Shown here in pieces: positions 829 to 22,397 of a stretch of DNA of 32,267 nt. The position numbers and the translations under genes were made by a program. Location: IMG/VR virus record IMGVR_UViG_3300044858_002116, positions 1 through 32,267 of that record; one strand, 5' to 3'. Under the pieces are notes generated by a model. The model was not told the origin of the DNA. It searched no databases and worked only from the letters and a program-made list of their open reading frames with translations. Source of the stretch: a virus. How positions within the stretch are numbered: the stretch's first letter is position 1; the number at the start of each line of letters is the position of its first letter.

Positions 829-1140
829 AAGTGAGTATGAAAGTCGGTGTTGCGTAGCGTTGAGCCGACGACTTAGGGTGTAGACAAGCAGGGCACGGCT
901 AGGTGGTGCGTGATCACCTTCTCCTGCGGCGGAAGCAAGCACCTGACTAGTGGCTGCGAGTGGGGCGCATACCTGTCGCGGTTGATAAGGGCAAGCGAGA
1001 AGCGCAACTCGCAAGCCTAACTCCAGACTTCCCAACCACAGAGGGTATGTAGTACCAAGCGAATGCTTTGCCCACGGGTTGGTTTCTTGTTGGTGGGGGC
1101 ACTAATGACTCCCTCGTATGTAAAGAGAATAGGAGAGATC
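829..1140 (+). ncRNA. Candidate structured non-coding RNA in a gene-free gap
   Basis: No well-supported gene lies here, and the next gene has its own Shine-Dalgarno at 1131-1135. I count 139 G/C in 240 bases (58%) for 841-1080, against about 40% in the 60-base lines 541-600 and 1201-1260. Complementary arms that can be read directly: 843-847/865-869; 901-905/915-919; 952-961/1007-1017 (10 pairs with bulged A1014), enclosing 965-968/1002-1005 and 976-979/995-998; 1044-1047/1053-1056; 1057-1060/1065-1068 with a GAAT loop; 1071-1075/1093-1097. No tRNA, tmRNA or group I intron core signature was found. The identity is unknown. It could be a stand-alone phage RNA or a structured 5' leader for the gene at 1141. 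Confidence 0.5.
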
Positions 1141-4078: not shown

Positions 4079-4121
4079 ACCCCAATGCTGGATTCCTTCC
4101 CCAGCATTGGGGTATTTTTTT
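4079..4121 (+). terminator. Intrinsic terminator of the rightward block
   Basis: Thirteen perfect pairs form between 4079-4091 (ACCCCAATGCTGG) and 4101-4113 (CCAGCATTGGGGT), with a nine-base loop, followed by A and seven T residues (4115-4121). This is a textbook rho-independent terminator for the plus strand. It sits where the two converging blocks meet. On the minus strand the hairpin also forms but is followed by GTAGTATTAG, so it would stop leftward transcripts only weakly. Confidence 0.93.
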
Positions 4122-4147
4122 GAAACAGACTGCGCGTATCGGCTTTC

Positions 4148-4202
4148 TACCTGGCGAACGCACTAGTTGATGAAGTCTCTCTCCTTTTTACCTGGCGAAC
4201 GC
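4148..4202. repeat. 14-bp direct repeat pair at the convergent junction
   Basis: TACCTGGCGAACGC occurs at 4148-4161 and again at 4189-4202, 41 bases apart. The second copy encodes part of the C-terminus of the leftward 89-aa gene and the first lies just past its stop. Read on the minus strand both copies give GCGTTCGCCAGGTA, so the gene's end looks locally duplicated, with the outer copy now non-coding. It could also be a protein-binding site. Confidence 0.6.
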
Positions 4203-16794: not shown

Positions 16795-17319
16795 TTACTC
16801 GCTCCAAGGATTGCCGAGGGACGCTATGTCCCTAACAATCTCATCGGAGCTTCTCTTTCCTGCCTTAGCCGTAGTGGCCTTGGCAGGCTTGTTGGGATCC
16901 ACGAACGTTTCCTCAGACTTCCCCACACCCTTGCGAACCATATCCTCAAAGGCCCGTGCCCGATCTTCATCTGTAAGATCTTTGCTTGATTCGGCCCAGG
17001 TTGTGTAGTTTGGGAACTCCTTAGACAAACGCTCACGCTTCTCGGAAGCCCGAGTAGCGTTAAGTTCTTGCTCCAGTGCGGCGATTTTCCGCTGAGCTTT
17101 TTCAAACTCAGAAAGGCTGGCCTCCTCCATCTGAAGCTTCCACTGCACGACCTTGTCGTGCTCTGCCTTAATCTCATCCAACTGCTTTTTAACAGTCGTC
17201 AGAGCTTGGTCCTTGCCAGCAAGGCGCTTCTTCCAAGTGGTGATGTCGTTCTCATCCTGAGTGGCAGCCACCTCCTGCGACTCGGTCTGTTCGTTCAACA
17301 CGACTTCTCCGTCAGTCAC
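16795..17319 (-). CDS. Scaffold-like capsid assembly protein
   Basis: The 174-residue protein is acidic at the N-terminus (about 1-28), then has a long charged coiled-coil region (about 29-100) and a polar, lysine-containing C-terminus. Such acidic-to-coiled proteins directly upstream of the capsid gene are typical phage scaffolds. GTG 17319 has GGAGG six bases upstream and overlaps the giant gene's stop (GTGA). No protease motif is visible. Confidence 0.8.
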   Translation of the reverse strand: MTDGEVVLNEQTESQEVAATQDENDITTWKKRLAGKDQALTTVKKQLDEIKAEHDKVVQWKLQMEEASLSEFEKAQRKIAALEQELNATRASEKRERLSKEFPNYTTWAESSKDLTDEDRARAFEDMVRKGVGKSEETFVDPNKPAKATTAKAGKRSSDEIVRDIASLGNPWSE

Positions 17320-20300
17320 CTGTTACCTCCATATTTTTCGAAGTCAATCTCTCCCGTTGCACGCTGGGAGATTGGCTCCGGATTGTTTCCACCCGAAATC
17401 TGGGTGACGATCTGGTCCGCAGCGCCAGCAAGGTTTTCACCTGTGGCGAGAGGACCGAACCTAACAAGCGATCCAAGGATGTCTCGACCGACGAAATCGC
17501 CGATCCCATAATCCTTGTCTGCGCCCGCCAGGCTTCTGGCAACGTTTCTCAGGTATGCCGGAGGGACAGCTGTGATGTCCCACGGTACGCCCGGGAATAG
17601 CTGAGTGACCATGAAGGCCACCTCATCCATATTTTCCAGATTGTTCCTGAGCGTATAGTCAGTCTCAATCTGATGCTCTACGTAATCTCGTACGTGTATG
17701 TACGACTGGTACCCTGCTCCAGGTGCGTACGTTCCGAACGGCTTCTTAAATAGGAACTCAATCATTTCTGGTAGGATCTTCTTAAACATGTAGCTGTATG
17801 GGTAGAACCCTAGGAATGGATGGTTGATGCTCCTCTCGAACAAGCTTCGCTCCGGGTTGAAGTATGTAGTCCTGTTCGCCTGCTTGAGTGCCTTCTCGTA
17901 TACGTATCGGTATGCCTTGAAAAGCTCCTCCTCCACTCCATGCTTTGTCATGAGCGTGTAGTTGGCTGAGTCTAGTGCTTCAAGAAGCTTGACGTCATCT
18001 GATATTGCCTGTCGGGATAGTCGTCGGATTTCTGCAGTAAGATCCTGCGCATTACCGCTCCCGACTGCGGCCTTGGCGTCTCTTACTATGCGCTGAAGGG
18101 TAGACGACACGGTAGCTATGTCGCCTCCGTATCCTCCTCCGAGGGCAAGTGCCTCTGCGATTCTAGACCCTTCGTACGTGATCTCACCGCCAACAGCGAA
18201 TGCTGTGTCTTGGATCATGATCTCGGCGGAAAGGCGCCTGAGGTCTGCATCGTTCCTAATCTCTTGAACCTTCCTTAAGGACTGGTCCAGCTTGTCGTAT
18301 GCCTCGTTGAACTTAGTTGTCCTAAGTGCAGACACTGTTCCGGAACGTCGGATCTCGTCATCTGCAAGCCCAAGCTGTGCCTTGAGCTGCGCGAACTCCT
18401 CGTCTACCATCGACATGTCGTAGTTGGAATCGCTCATTCTCTGGTATGCAACGTCTAGGTTATCTCCAGCCTGCTTAGGCCTGGTTAGGTACTCACGTCG
18501 AACAAGGCTTGGCGCAACCTCATCTCCAGCTGAACTCTTACCCCCGAAGATAGAGTACCTAACATCAGCGTACACCTGGCCGGTACGATCTGGAATAGCA
18601 TTGAACCCGATACCAGCAGGGCGTGCGGCGTCGATGTCAGACAGAACTCTTTCTTGGTTGAATAGTCGTCGTCGGTAGTCTGCGTAGCGAACAAATAGTG
18701 TCCGTGAGTCAGATGTACCGTATAGGGAAACTAGTGAGTTGTACAGAGACGGGTCGTTTTTCTGAAGCTCCTGCGCAAACTGCTTGGAGGCAATGTCCAT
18801 TGCAAGTGCGTCCTTAGCAGCATCTTTCCTTTCGACAAGAACGTCTCCTGCTTCTGCCTTGAACACTCTTCCGGCACCAGCTTTGGCAGAAGATAGTTTC
18901 CTCTTTACAGCATCGATGATCCCGGTCGCCTCTCCCACCTGCCAGTTCCCAGTTAGGGCACGCTCGAGGGCCCTTTCACGGAAGACAGTCAGGAAGTTAA
19001 CGTTGTCTATTAAAGCATGTGTTTGAGGGGCAACGTTGGCTAGGTCTCGGATCTCTCCAGCCGTAGCTCGCAATACCTGGCCGTCCTTGGTAATTGCTGA
19101 TATTACTTCTCGGTCAACACCTCGTGCCTGGTTAAGAGTAGACGACTCAAAGAACTCTTGTACCCAGTACAGGGGGTTGTTCTTGAATCGGAATTGAGGA
19201 TACATTCTGTCGGTTATATTTGCGATAGATGGAAGCCACCTCTTCGCAGCTCCGCTTGCGTACTGGCTGTATCCTACAACTCTAGAGTCACCCTGGAATG
19301 AGTACATCATTGCGTCAACTGCCTTGAACTCTCCGCCACCGGACGCTGTAGATGCCTTCCACGAATCTTTAAATCGGTCGTACCCGCCGAATCCTTCTTG
19401 TAGGTTGAAGGCTTTTTCGAAAAGCAAGTCCATTGTTTCCCTGTTGAGACCTCGTGCGCTTACTCCCTGGGCTATGGCTTCCTTGACAATCTCGTCCATT
19501 ACCCTATCTACATGAGCTGAGCTCACCCCGCCTCGAGCAAGATAGCTCGCCATTCGGTTTTTGATATTGCTAGTAACGGCAGAGTTCCCTATTGGTGAGA
19601 AGACGCTGCCGATGATGTGCTGAAGCCTACTTGCAGTGTATCTAGTGCTGTACTGAACGTCCTTCAAGTAAGGGCTGGTCATATCAATAAACGGTCGAAC
19701 CTGGCTTTGCATAATAAGCGCCTTGGTTTGGCCGTCAATGTTAGGGTTCTCAATAATCTTCAAGACCCTGTGATAGTTTTGCTTTGGAGCACGAGCAATT
19801 GTGTAGCGCGTATCGTTCATTACGCTGAGTATGGATGGGTCCATGCCCTGAGAAGCTACGATCCTAGCTAGGTCTTGCATGTCCTCTGGCCCTAGTGGGT
19901 TGATGGCAAATCCATTTTCTATAGCATCGTTCACAAACCTAAAGATTCTCTCAGGGTTTTCAGCGTACGAGAACGTAGAGCCTAGCTCTTCGGACATGTC
20001 AAGCGTTGCCCTTGACCACGCCTTCTTAACGTCAAGTAGGTTCTCTGCCTTCTTCATCTCTTCTAGGACGTCGTTAAGGGCGTCTACCGAGTAGCTGTCT
20101 CCCCTGGCCTTCGCGTCTGGCATCAGCTCATTCTTGATCTTCGAGCGGATTGCGGCAACGTCAGAAGCACTACCGATGTACTCTTTAACCAGAGGCTGAC
20201 CAGCTGCGTACCTGGCTTCTGCTGTCGGAAGGAATGAGTCCCGACCGCCACCTTCTATCTTCTGTATTGCCTCGTACAGGCTCTTCATTGTCCTGGCAGA

Positions 20301-22397
20301 GCTTAGGAACAGCATCCCTTTTCTTCGAACTACCTGGATCCTACCTACGTTATTGGCTGCCTTCCGGATCTGTCGGAACCCTTCCTCACCGTATTTGGAT
20401 ATGAGGGAATCTGAAACCTTAGGGTCCATTACCTTTGCCGTCACTGGTGCGATGGCTTCGTTAATCTGTGAGGCCCACTTGTTTGCCGATTCGAACCCTG
20501 CCATATCGATAAGAAGGAAGTCTCGTGCAACCATTCGTCGGGTGTCGGCTTCTGTTGCGCCCTTCGTTACAAGTCCCCCCCTGCGGACTAGCTCTCCTTG
20601 GTCATCAAAGTATTTACCAAAGATTTTTTCGAAAGCCTCGTCTGATGCGGATTGACGGACCGGTGTCCATGTGTCCCCGGCAGCGGCTGACATCGATCTG
20701 GTCCTTGCAAGGTACTCTGTCTTGAGGGCCTGCTTGTTAATAATTCTAGGTACCAGCTTATAGACCTGTCGGTCGATCTCTGCGATAACTTGTCGTGACA
20801 TTTCGTCTGGGCCTAGGTCTAGAAGTAGGTCGTGAACCCTTCGCTCTACGCCACCCTCCTGCCTTGAGATCTGCTTTAGCGCTGTGATAACGTACTCGCT
20901 CTCAACCATTTCTGTAAGAGCCTGAGTTGACACGTCGCTAGCACGTCCAGTGTTGGCGAGGTTGGCCCTGTCGTTAACGTTGGAAATAATCCTTATGCGG
21001 TCCTTGAGCTTAATTACTCCGTCAACATTGTCTGATATTCCTAGAACCGCGACCGTACCACCCTGCTCCCTGGCCATGACGATCATCTGACCTGCGATGT
21101 TGTCGATGTCCTTGTCGGCAACCTGGCCAAGATTTAGCTCTTTCACCGAGGACATGTAGGTGTTCACGGTAGAATCCGCAATGACCTTTGCCTTGGCCGA
21201 CTCAGGCCTGGCGATGAGCCTTCCGATTGCCATCACTGGGAAGTTTGATGCCCCACGGCCCATGAACTCGTGAACCAATGGACGAAGCTCTGGTGCTACA
21301 GTAGATGCGTGGATGTCCATGATTTCGTTTGCTCGGTATCCGCCTAGGGCTCTCATGATAGTATTCGTTGAAGCTGGGACAAGAGCACCAGCTACAGCCC
21401 TCAGGCCTTGCTTGCTTCGATTGCTAACCCCAACCATTCCACGGTACATACCGATTCCGAATCCATTGTTAATGGCGTTTACAACGTTATTAGCTGATTC
21501 CGCATCCTCGATTGTTTTAGTCAGGGCTACCACTTCGCTGCTTGCTGGGTTTGCGCCCTTTGAAATTAGCTCGTCGATCTTAGTCCTTGAGGTTCGGATA
21601 AGCTCTTCGTTCTGTGAACCTACCCGCAGTCGCTCAGTAAGATTCATACCGTAACCATCGGCCGGCATGCCAGTCTTCTTATCTATTCCCTTCTCAAGCC
21701 TAAGAAGAATTTTGTCTGCGGTGCCGAGGTCGTCCATTTTCCCAGCTGTCTCGAATGCCTTCTCTGCGCCTCGTACTGCAGATCGTCCCGCCTTGTAGGC
21801 AGCAACAGCGCCGACCACTCCCCCGATTGGTCCAGCTACTGCGGTTCCCCCAAGAAGTCCAGCTGCGGCGCTAAGGGGCTTGAGTGCACTTATCTTGCCC
21901 AGGGCTAGAGGGGTAAAGTTGAGCGGGTCAAGGAGTATCTGGAATGCTAGGTTTGCTTCCTTGCTGTTGGAGAAAGCGCGCTGCGAGTTAACCATGTAAT
22001 CCGCAACTTCGTCTGCGTTTCTACCTGATGCAATCATGTTTCGTATGTCGTCTGGTAGCCCTCCCTGGTCCAGCATCCTAAGCCTTGCAGCTGCCTGCTG
22101 CACAGCCCAGCTCGGTACGTTAAGAAGGTCAAGTCCTTTTCCTATTGCCCACCCAACCGGTGAGTCTGCAACCATTTTAAAGGCAGGCTCAACAATTGGT
22201 AGCTTGGTGGCGAACTGTGCACCACGGCTAACTACCTCTGTTACTGCTCCACCAAACTCCTTTGCCATCTTTTCAGCAGGGTTCAGGTTCATGTCCTGAG
22301 GCTTGCCGCCAATGTCAAGGGTTACGCCAAGGTCTTTACCCTTTAGCTTTTCTTCCTGCTCGGAAGGAGCGCCTGGATCTCTATAGATAAATGGCAT
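17316..22397 (-). CDS. Giant virion-associated protein, 1693 aa (candidate internal/ejection protein)
   Basis: This is the largest gene in the window. The protein is mostly alpha-helical and charged, has a Gly/Ala-rich hydrophobic segment at about 175-202 (LSAAAGLLGGTAVAGPIGG), a segment with RMYPQFRFKNNPLYW and a C-terminal segment HPFLGFYPYSYMFKKILPE (about 1526-1544). I see no protease, RNA polymerase (T7/N4 motifs), kinase or lytic transglycosylase signature. Its place between the 943-aa protein and scaffold, and its size, fit an internal or ejection protein carried in the head. A tape measure is a less likely alternative because no tube genes are present. It starts at ATG 22397 (TAATG overlap). 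Confidence 0.6.
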   Translation of the reverse strand: MPFIYRDPGAPSEQEEKLKGKDLGVTLDIGGKPQDMNLNPAEKMAKEFGGAVTEVVSRGAQFATKLPIVEPAFKMVADSPVGWAIGKGLDLLNVPSWAVQQAAARLRMLDQGGLPDDIRNMIASGRNADEVADYMVNSQRAFSNSKEANLAFQILLDPLNFTPLALGKISALKPLSAAAGLLGGTAVAGPIGGVVGAVAAYKAGRSAVRGAEKAFETAGKMDDLGTADKILLRLEKGIDKKTGMPADGYGMNLTERLRVGSQNEELIRTSRTKIDELISKGANPASSEVVALTKTIEDAESANNVVNAINNGFGIGMYRGMVGVSNRSKQGLRAVAGALVPASTNTIMRALGGYRANEIMDIHASTVAPELRPLVHEFMGRGASNFPVMAIGRLIARPESAKAKVIADSTVNTYMSSVKELNLGQVADKDIDNIAGQMIVMAREQGGTVAVLGISDNVDGVIKLKDRIRIISNVNDRANLANTGRASDVSTQALTEMVESEYVITALKQISRQEGGVERRVHDLLLDLGPDEMSRQVIAEIDRQVYKLVPRIINKQALKTEYLARTRSMSAAAGDTWTPVRQSASDEAFEKIFGKYFDDQGELVRRGGLVTKGATEADTRRMVARDFLLIDMAGFESANKWASQINEAIAPVTAKVMDPKVSDSLISKYGEEGFRQIRKAANNVGRIQVVRRKGMLFLSSARTMKSLYEAIQKIEGGGRDSFLPTAEARYAAGQPLVKEYIGSASDVAAIRSKIKNELMPDAKARGDSYSVDALNDVLEEMKKAENLLDVKKAWSRATLDMSEELGSTFSYAENPERIFRFVNDAIENGFAINPLGPEDMQDLARIVASQGMDPSILSVMNDTRYTIARAPKQNYHRVLKIIENPNIDGQTKALIMQSQVRPFIDMTSPYLKDVQYSTRYTASRLQHIIGSVFSPIGNSAVTSNIKNRMASYLARGGVSSAHVDRVMDEIVKEAIAQGVSARGLNRETMDLLFEKAFNLQEGFGGYDRFKDSWKASTASGGGEFKAVDAMMYSFQGDSRVVGYSQYASGAAKRWLPSIANITDRMYPQFRFKNNPLYWVQEFFESSTLNQARGVDREVISAITKDGQVLRATAGEIRDLANVAPQTHALIDNVNFLTVFRERALERALTGNWQVGEATGIIDAVKRKLSSAKAGAGRVFKAEAGDVLVERKDAAKDALAMDIASKQFAQELQKNDPSLYNSLVSLYGTSDSRTLFVRYADYRRRLFNQERVLSDIDAARPAGIGFNAIPDRTGQVYADVRYSIFGGKSSAGDEVAPSLVRREYLTRPKQAGDNLDVAYQRMSDSNYDMSMVDEEFAQLKAQLGLADDEIRRSGTVSALRTTKFNEAYDKLDQSLRKVQEIRNDADLRRLSAEIMIQDTAFAVGGEITYEGSRIAEALALGGGYGGDIATVSSTLQRIVRDAKAAVGSGNAQDLTAEIRRLSRQAISDDVKLLEALDSANYTLMTKHGVEEELFKAYRYVYEKALKQANRTTYFNPERSLFERSINHPFLGFYPYSYMFKKILPEMIEFLFKKPFGTYAPGAGYQSYIHVRDYVEHQIETDYTLRNNLENMDEVAFMVTQLFPGVPWDITAVPPAYLRNVARSLAGADKDYGIGDFVGRDILGSLVRFGPLATGENLAGAADQIVTQISGGNNPEPISQRATGEIDFEKYGGNR

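Follow-up and report, generated by a model that had tools for sequence, protein, structure and literature searches.

In phage T7, RNase III sites lie beside promoters. The SAS elements of mycobacteriophages sit 3–8 bp before the start codon, and stoperators are asymmetric in their orientation.

The promoter of the Syn5 RNA polymerase is ATTGGGCACCCGTAA (PMC3950665), and the early promoters used by the N4 virion RNA polymerase are hairpin promoters (PMC4496689). The SAS/ESAS repeats of Cluster K mycobacteriophages have a 13-bp SAS consensus, GGGATAGGAGCCC (PMC3203893), and the stoperators of Cluster A mycobacteriophages are short sites in intergenic spaces (PMC9283540).

Here, we analysed an intergenic gap in a window of 32,267 nucleotides of viral DNA (IMGVR_UViG_3300044858_002116) and compared it with these systems. 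The gap, at positions 829–1140, is a composite: a conserved control segment (1023–1140) preceded by an insert (829–1022).

Layout of the P0001–P0002 gap

The gap spans 312 nt between P0001 (367–828, plus strand; 153 aa, starting with MGYDIYT) and P0002 (1141–1581, plus strand; 146 aa). As the original prediction had read it, this stretch is gene-free and non-coding and sits in the early small-gene block of the phage. The homologues of P0001 in the comparison phages share 59–76% identity and those of P0002 in related phages 38–96%, and Pfam and PHROG searches with the two proteins matched no family. The gap is locally GC-rich. Our recount reproduces the 139 G/C in the 240 bases of 841–1080 (58%), as well as the 40% and 38% of the outlying 60-base lines 541–600 (24/60) and 1201–1260 (23/60); the rise holds against the early block (46%), but not against the whole window (52.6%). 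The accompanying statement that every other junction is tightly packed is roughly correct, except for a 145-base gap with a tRNA-Ile at 2678–2822 and for the convergent junction past 4072, where non-coding sequence is also present. This tRNA-Ile (anticodon TAT, 2730–2802) lies inside the early block and is also found in the related contigs L027, L017 and L026. ARAGORN found nothing in 829–1140, and the Rfam search proposed at the outset gave no covariance-model match at the gathering score—the top match at E<10, with E 6.5, was to a microRNA model from plants and lay on the minus strand—in agreement with the claimed absence of tRNA, tmRNA and group I intron landmarks.

Which phages share this gap? 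About ten distinct relatives of the window phage are present in IMG/VR. Among 84,980 genomes of bacteria and archaea, none had a relative of P0001. The GenBank phage set matched neither P0001 nor the terminase; the first 3 kb of the window gave only a short tRNA match there, and the gap itself only matches of E 4. The window phage belongs to an uncultivated group, and the comparisons below are based on few relatives, fragmentary contigs and structural alignments made by eye. The P0001–P0002 gap measures about 140–155 nt (~145) in most relatives, about 50 nt in L026 and L038, and about 300 nt in L041, while only the window and a near-identical contig (L018/L060) have the 312-nt form. In the relatives, the elements follow the order stop codon, strong hairpin, motif M1, motif M2, often a small stem-loop, Shine-Dalgarno (SD) sequence and start codon; in the shortest gaps, those of L026 and L038, a single hairpin element remains between the stop codon and the SD. 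The conserved core of this intergenic control segment occupies ~118 nt in the window (1023–1140, plus strand). Its blastn identity is 99% in L027 and 77–80% in L017, L023 and L024, and the same element order recurs in L021, L019, L025, L009, L041 and L042. By direct reading, an SD-like AGGAGAG lies at 1131–1137 (plus strand).

A strong hairpin is located shortly past the stop codon in all eight of the sampled P0001–P0002 gaps of relatives, and in seven of seven gaps between gene A and gene B, two genes upstream; an eighth gene A–gene B gap, in L025, has a hairpin with z −6.6. The z values of these post-stop hairpins range from −4.0 to −8.8 and are somewhat flattering, as the hairpins were picked by eye before scoring, while their recurrent position is not in doubt. 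The arms are mostly unrelated between phages. None of the hairpins has a T run, and they are therefore not standard intrinsic terminators. The window phage has lost the strong hairpin and kept its right arm alone: the hairpin of L027 and L017, AGTCTGGAGGG..CCCTCCAGACT, stands at the place of the window insert, and sequence comparison identifies the leftover right arm, CTCCAGACTT, at 1021–1030 (plus strand). Soon past the stop codon, a weak hairpin GTCGG..CCGAC (845–869, plus strand; z −1.49) is a possible stand-in for the lost one. With respect to compensatory changes, the post-stop hairpins of the relatives are strong and their arms are non-homologous, and the insert has no informative homologue.

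Motif M1 (TACCAAGCGAATGC, 1053–1066, plus strand) is the window form of a conserved TACnnnnCGAAYG, which lies between the post-stop hairpin and M2 in the gaps of the relatives. The pattern TACYWDRCGAAYG has 25 exact matches in 14 related contigs, a few of them inside coding sequence (e.g., L026 5637 and L019 5705), as compared to one match for the reversed control pattern. In IMG/VR, a scan for M1 plus a CGTA motif retrieved known relatives only, together with one false match in a coding region. M1 occurs three times in the window, at 1053, 4148 and 4189. The latter two copies (TACCTGGCGAACGC; 4148–4202, plus strand) are 41 nt apart and follow a terminator-like hairpin, 4080–4122, which closes the early block. 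This tandem (4148–4161/4189–4202) overlaps the end of a minus-strand ORF and is conserved in L027, L017 and L024. Arm-swap tests of a stem around M1 gave p 0.007 at one flank length and 0.24 and 0.13 at two others, and a short hairpin at M1 gave p 0.24. A hairpin at M1 was rejected as an RNA element for this inconsistent, flank-dependent support, and because the stem tests are mixed, we treat M1 as a sequence motif.

Motif M2 (TGACTCCCTCGTA, 1106–1118, plus strand) is promoter-like, with 22 nt between its end and the ATG at 1141. It is nearly constant within a phage and different between phages, at the same place upstream of the SD: TGACTCCCTCGTA in the window, L027, L017 and L024; TGACTCCCCCGTAG and variants in L009; GTTGCTCTCCCGTATA in L019; GCTGGACTnnCCTCCATA in L021; GTTCCCTnnCCCGTA and variants in L025; and GGTCTGCCCCCCGTAG in L041 and L046. 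Most phages repeat their M2 two to six times on the early strand. The TGACTCCCTCGTA type has four copies each in L017 and L027 (one of the latter a variant), and GTTGCTCTCCCGTATA has five in L019. TTGCTCTCCCG occurs five times in 11 kb of L019 and GTCTGCCCCCC four times in 6 kb of L045, all in the early orientation, and the pattern CYCCCNCGTA matches early blocks in that orientation. All of the copies examined in detail are oriented with the early genes, and every copy found is located near the divergent start, within the early block. Nearly all of the gene-adjacent copies end about 20–45 nt before a start codon with an SD, and in many of them a stable stem-loop is located between M2 and the SD; the copies at L027 4671 and L045 2572 have no gene directly after them.

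Possible roles of the control segment

How might these elements work? At a rough probability of 45%, we favour the reading that the gap is an early-gene control cassette in which M2 would be a promoter for a phage-specific transcription apparatus. The gap would thus serve as the intergenic control cassette of the early rightward gene block. The strong hairpin past the stop codon may end, process or protect the upstream message. M2, as the core promoter, would start the downstream message—that of P0002 here, with a leader of about 20 nt—and its reader would probably be an apparatus either supplied or modified by the phage. An insert of ~190 nt has taken the place of the left arm of the hairpin in the window phage. 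The position of M2, its single orientation, its constancy within phages and its change between them all point to a promoter, and its spacing to the start codons is as expected for a promoter with a short leader. A reader of the phage's own is probable because M2 is near-constant within a phage, differs between phages and lies on the early strand.

A search for this reader with PF00940 (single-subunit RNA polymerase) gave no match in 14 fragmentary contigs, a weak negative since the built-in control genomes were silent too. The large proteins (943, 1693 and 1831/2761 aa) matched no polymerase family or PDB entry, and AlphaFold without an alignment gave an uninformative pLDDT of 37 for part of the 1831-aa protein. 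We hold the promoter reading at the above probability because no polymerase was found and because the likeness of M2 to the Syn5 promoter beyond CCCGTA is at chance level. In addition, the same pattern of M2 would arise from a phage-specific regulator that binds RNA or DNA.

Two of the large proteins have distinctive settings. The giant gene, encoding 1831 aa at L064:3196–8691 (plus strand) and 2761 aa at L065:10402–18687 (minus strand), runs away from the early block, and its length varies strongly among the relatives; the L064 copy matches phrog_9995 near the N-terminus and otherwise no known family. The 1693-aa protein, encoded at 17316–22397 of the window (minus strand) between the portal and scaffold-like genes, is strongly conserved in a C-terminal stretch, FERSINHPFLGFYPYSYMFKKILPEMIEFLF, could be assigned to no credible family, and is possibly an ejected virion protein. 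An improbable elaboration is that the early promoters are of the hairpin type and particular to each phage, that they co-evolve with a virion-carried polymerase of an unrecognised kind, and that structured RNA units separate the early genes. The candidate for such a polymerase would be one of the 1693-aa and 1831–2761-aa proteins.

The main rival to the promoter reading, which we consider rather unlikely, is that M1, M2 and the hairpins act in cis as 5′/3′ untranslated RNA, on which RNase III, a ligand or an RNA-binding protein of the phage would act to control the translation or processing of early messages. The strong post-stop hairpins without a T run would suit such a role. Moreover, in the first operon unit, M2 serves as right arm in a helix of 12 pairs (GGGGGTCACTAT/ATAGTGACTCCC) enclosing another hairpin, and other phages have different yet complementary arms at this site. 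By eye, the core also appears to have undergone pair-preserving changes between L027, the window and L017 (GGGCA/TGCCC, GGGTA/TGCCC and GGTA/TACC). Across 42 M2 copies from all phages, the upstream bases are often able to pair with M2 (combined p 2.5e-7, for copies that are not fully independent and with the effect carried by some of them only). In the window phage, the corresponding hairpin, GGGGGCA/TGACTCCC (1095–1113, plus strand), whose right arm lies in M2, is a possible one, with p 0.15. Against this reading, the arm-swap within phages was not significant for M2 in five of six phage groups, the tests of the M1 stem were mixed, and the window gap, its insert and its core show no folding excess. 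Furthermore, the M1 pair at 4148/4189 lies past the terminator-like site of the early block, a position at which rightward RNA should be scarce.

Upstream of the left edge of the window, the relatives carry further intergenic units, which are better structured-RNA candidates than the window gap. The first of them opens with the conserved leader TTAAGrTTCCTTATCA, followed by GGGTATGTCAGTCCGGGAGG..CCGGTAACCC, and contains helices with differing arms that still pair in several phages. In seven contigs, the conserved TTAAGrTTCCTTATCA opens the early block and precedes a leader, also conserved, that has CCGG..CCGG and closing GGGT..ACCC pairs (L027:4540–4640, L041:930–1000, L046:1990–2070 and equivalents); Rfam gave no match in the contigs scanned. 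A unit of about 200 nt between two early genes, with the conserved words GATAAG, GGGAGGT and GTATTACC, is a candidate structured RNA found in ten contigs (L027:5143–5352, L041:1555–1800 and equivalents); the window lacks it, as the record begins only downstream of this unit. Rfam gave no credible match in the early blocks of the relatives.

We also consider it unlikely that M1 and M2 are asymmetric, stoperator-like DNA sites, to which a phage protein would bind to stop or modulate transcription of the early block. The motifs are short and asymmetric, lie in one orientation relative to transcription, and are intergenic, including the pair at the convergent junction (4148/4189), as such sites would be. 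However, M2 keeps to start codons instead of being spread throughout the genome, and neither a repressor-like gene nor an integrase was recognised among the proteins scanned, in a scan that was not exhaustive.

Folding of the gap and origin of the insert

The original prediction presented 829–1140 as one undescribed structured RNA, either standing alone or serving as a regulatory leader for the gene at 1141. Our analysis supports a regulatory non-coding segment in part, but not a single 312-nt structured RNA: the gap resolves into the ~118-nt conserved segment and the ~194-nt insert. The proposed excess of folding over shuffled sequence was not found. The minimum free energy of the gap is −100.1, as compared to a shuffle mean of −106.2 (z +1.08), and 86 of 100 shuffles fold at least equally well; by themselves, the insert and the core have z +0.54 and +0.34. 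The predicted 10-pair stem with one bulged A (952–961/1007–1017, GGCTGCGAGT/ACTCGCAAGCC) is present as written, but helices of that length are common in shuffles: the longest helix in the minimum-energy fold of the gap has 9 pairs, the shuffle average is 11.3, and 75% of the shuffles reach 10. Since there is no folding excess and the shuffles have longer helices, eight drawable helices are to be expected in 312 GC-rich bases. Moreover, the predicted stems lie mostly inside the insert, a region that gains substitutions while the flanking genes have none.

A stand-alone small RNA filling the whole gap would fit a gene-free stretch that is GC-rich relative to its neighbours and has multiple potential stems. 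It is nevertheless very improbable, given the z of +1.1, the first two thirds carried by only one near-identical relative, the faster change of the insert than of its neighbours, and the absence of an Rfam match. The alternative of a regulatory leader or control region for P0002 is preferable because the 3′ third is conserved in the relatives directly upstream of that gene. The window thereby illustrates that a gap without genes, even one rich in GC and in drawable stems, does not have to encode a structured RNA.

What, then, is the insert? It measures ~194 nt, has a GC content of 58%, and is present only in the window and IMGVR_UViG_3300042332_000407. Alignment and blastn against all loci found no counterpart of 829–1022 in L027, L017, L023 or L024, and the insert stands where the relatives have the left arm of the post-stop hairpin. 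It contains no ORF of note. A covariance model of 925–1022 found no further copy, and an IMG/VR pattern scan with two insert words matched only the near-identical contig. Between the two near-identical genomes, the insert has 4 substitutions in 194 nt, the flanking genes have 0, and the overall difference is 0.26% over ~11 kb.

Several identities of the gap or of its insert were considered and rejected. As for a copy of another intergenic unit, the insert has three matches of 11–17 nt to other units (GTTGATAAGGG, GGCAAGCGAGA and AGC-AGGGCACGGCTAGG), each with p about 0.05 among 17 targets and hence not significant. The fragments ATGTAGTACC and AAGCGAATG are tmRNA-like, but they occur in reverse order without a model match and were taken as chance. 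A group I intron is drawable with GACTA/TAGT, yet matches no model. To our knowledge, the anatomy fits none of the HDV-like, hammerhead, twister and pistol ribozymes.

In the distant relative L041, the P0001–P0002 gap has an extra stretch of ~175 nt (L041:2969–3145) at the same place as the window insert; the two have the 11-mer GGCAAGCGAGA in common and no significant similarity. Because this stretch is unrelated, the hairpin/insert site of the gap appears to accept inserts.

The simplest reading of the insert is weakly constrained DNA, and in the window phage it is probably non-functional or weakly constrained. That the entire gap is an ordinary intergenic region, its insert a functionless leftover or decaying remnant of a lost small gene or of another intergenic unit, would accord with the substitutions and with the lack of significant similarity to other units or phages, but this is the least probable account, as it leaves the conserved core 1023–1140 unexplained, the insert is retained in both contigs carrying it, and other non-coding sites (2678–2822) also change at 2%.

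Comparison with described systems

Like the T7-like and Syn5 promoters, M2 is short, near-invariant within a phage, in one orientation and close upstream of genes. Conservation over 15–23 bp across the copies within a phage, as in the T7/Syn5 type, is found for GTTGCTCTCCCGTATA in L019 and for the TGACTCCCTCGTA type in L017 and L027. Several of the M2 sequences of these phages end in CC(C)GTA, as the Syn5 promoter does. M2 differs from these promoters in that no cognate polymerase was found and in that it varies between related phages.

The N4 early promoters resemble M2 in their few copies, their confinement to the early block and the layout near the divergent start. A further N4-like trait of M2 is that the right arm is conserved and the left one, which often pairs, varies; the loops measure 3 nt in L021 and L025. 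However, the pairing is not significant in the group of the window phage, and in one unit the “loop” exceeds 40 nt. The N4-type stem of 5–7 bp with a 3-nt loop, just upstream of the start site, is not a feature of every copy; it is good in the copies of L021 and L025, and most copies in the L027 and L041 groups have a weak stem or none. Moreover, a virion RNA polymerase was not recognised in these phages.

The stoperators are, like these motifs, asymmetric and intergenic, but differ from M2, which is tied to start codons and is itself not found across the genome. The SAS/ESAS repeats share with M2 the short repeats tied to gene starts, the mostly single orientation and the upstream inverted-repeat extension. 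SAS, however, resembles a ribosome-binding site, while M2 ends about 20–45 nt upstream, is pyrimidine-rich and is unlike GGGATAGGAGCCC, which was not present at the start codon in 1119–1140.

If M2 is a promoter, these phages would provide a series of promoter specificities that are related yet diverged, in an uncultivated group without a recognised phage polymerase, and would give the search for the reader of M2 a concrete basis. Should M2 turn out to be a signal for translation or processing, it would represent a further case of start-associated repeats like SAS/ESAS. The arrangement of the gaps in the relatives recalls T7 with its RNase III sites: in both, an intergenic hairpin is followed by a promoter-like signal.
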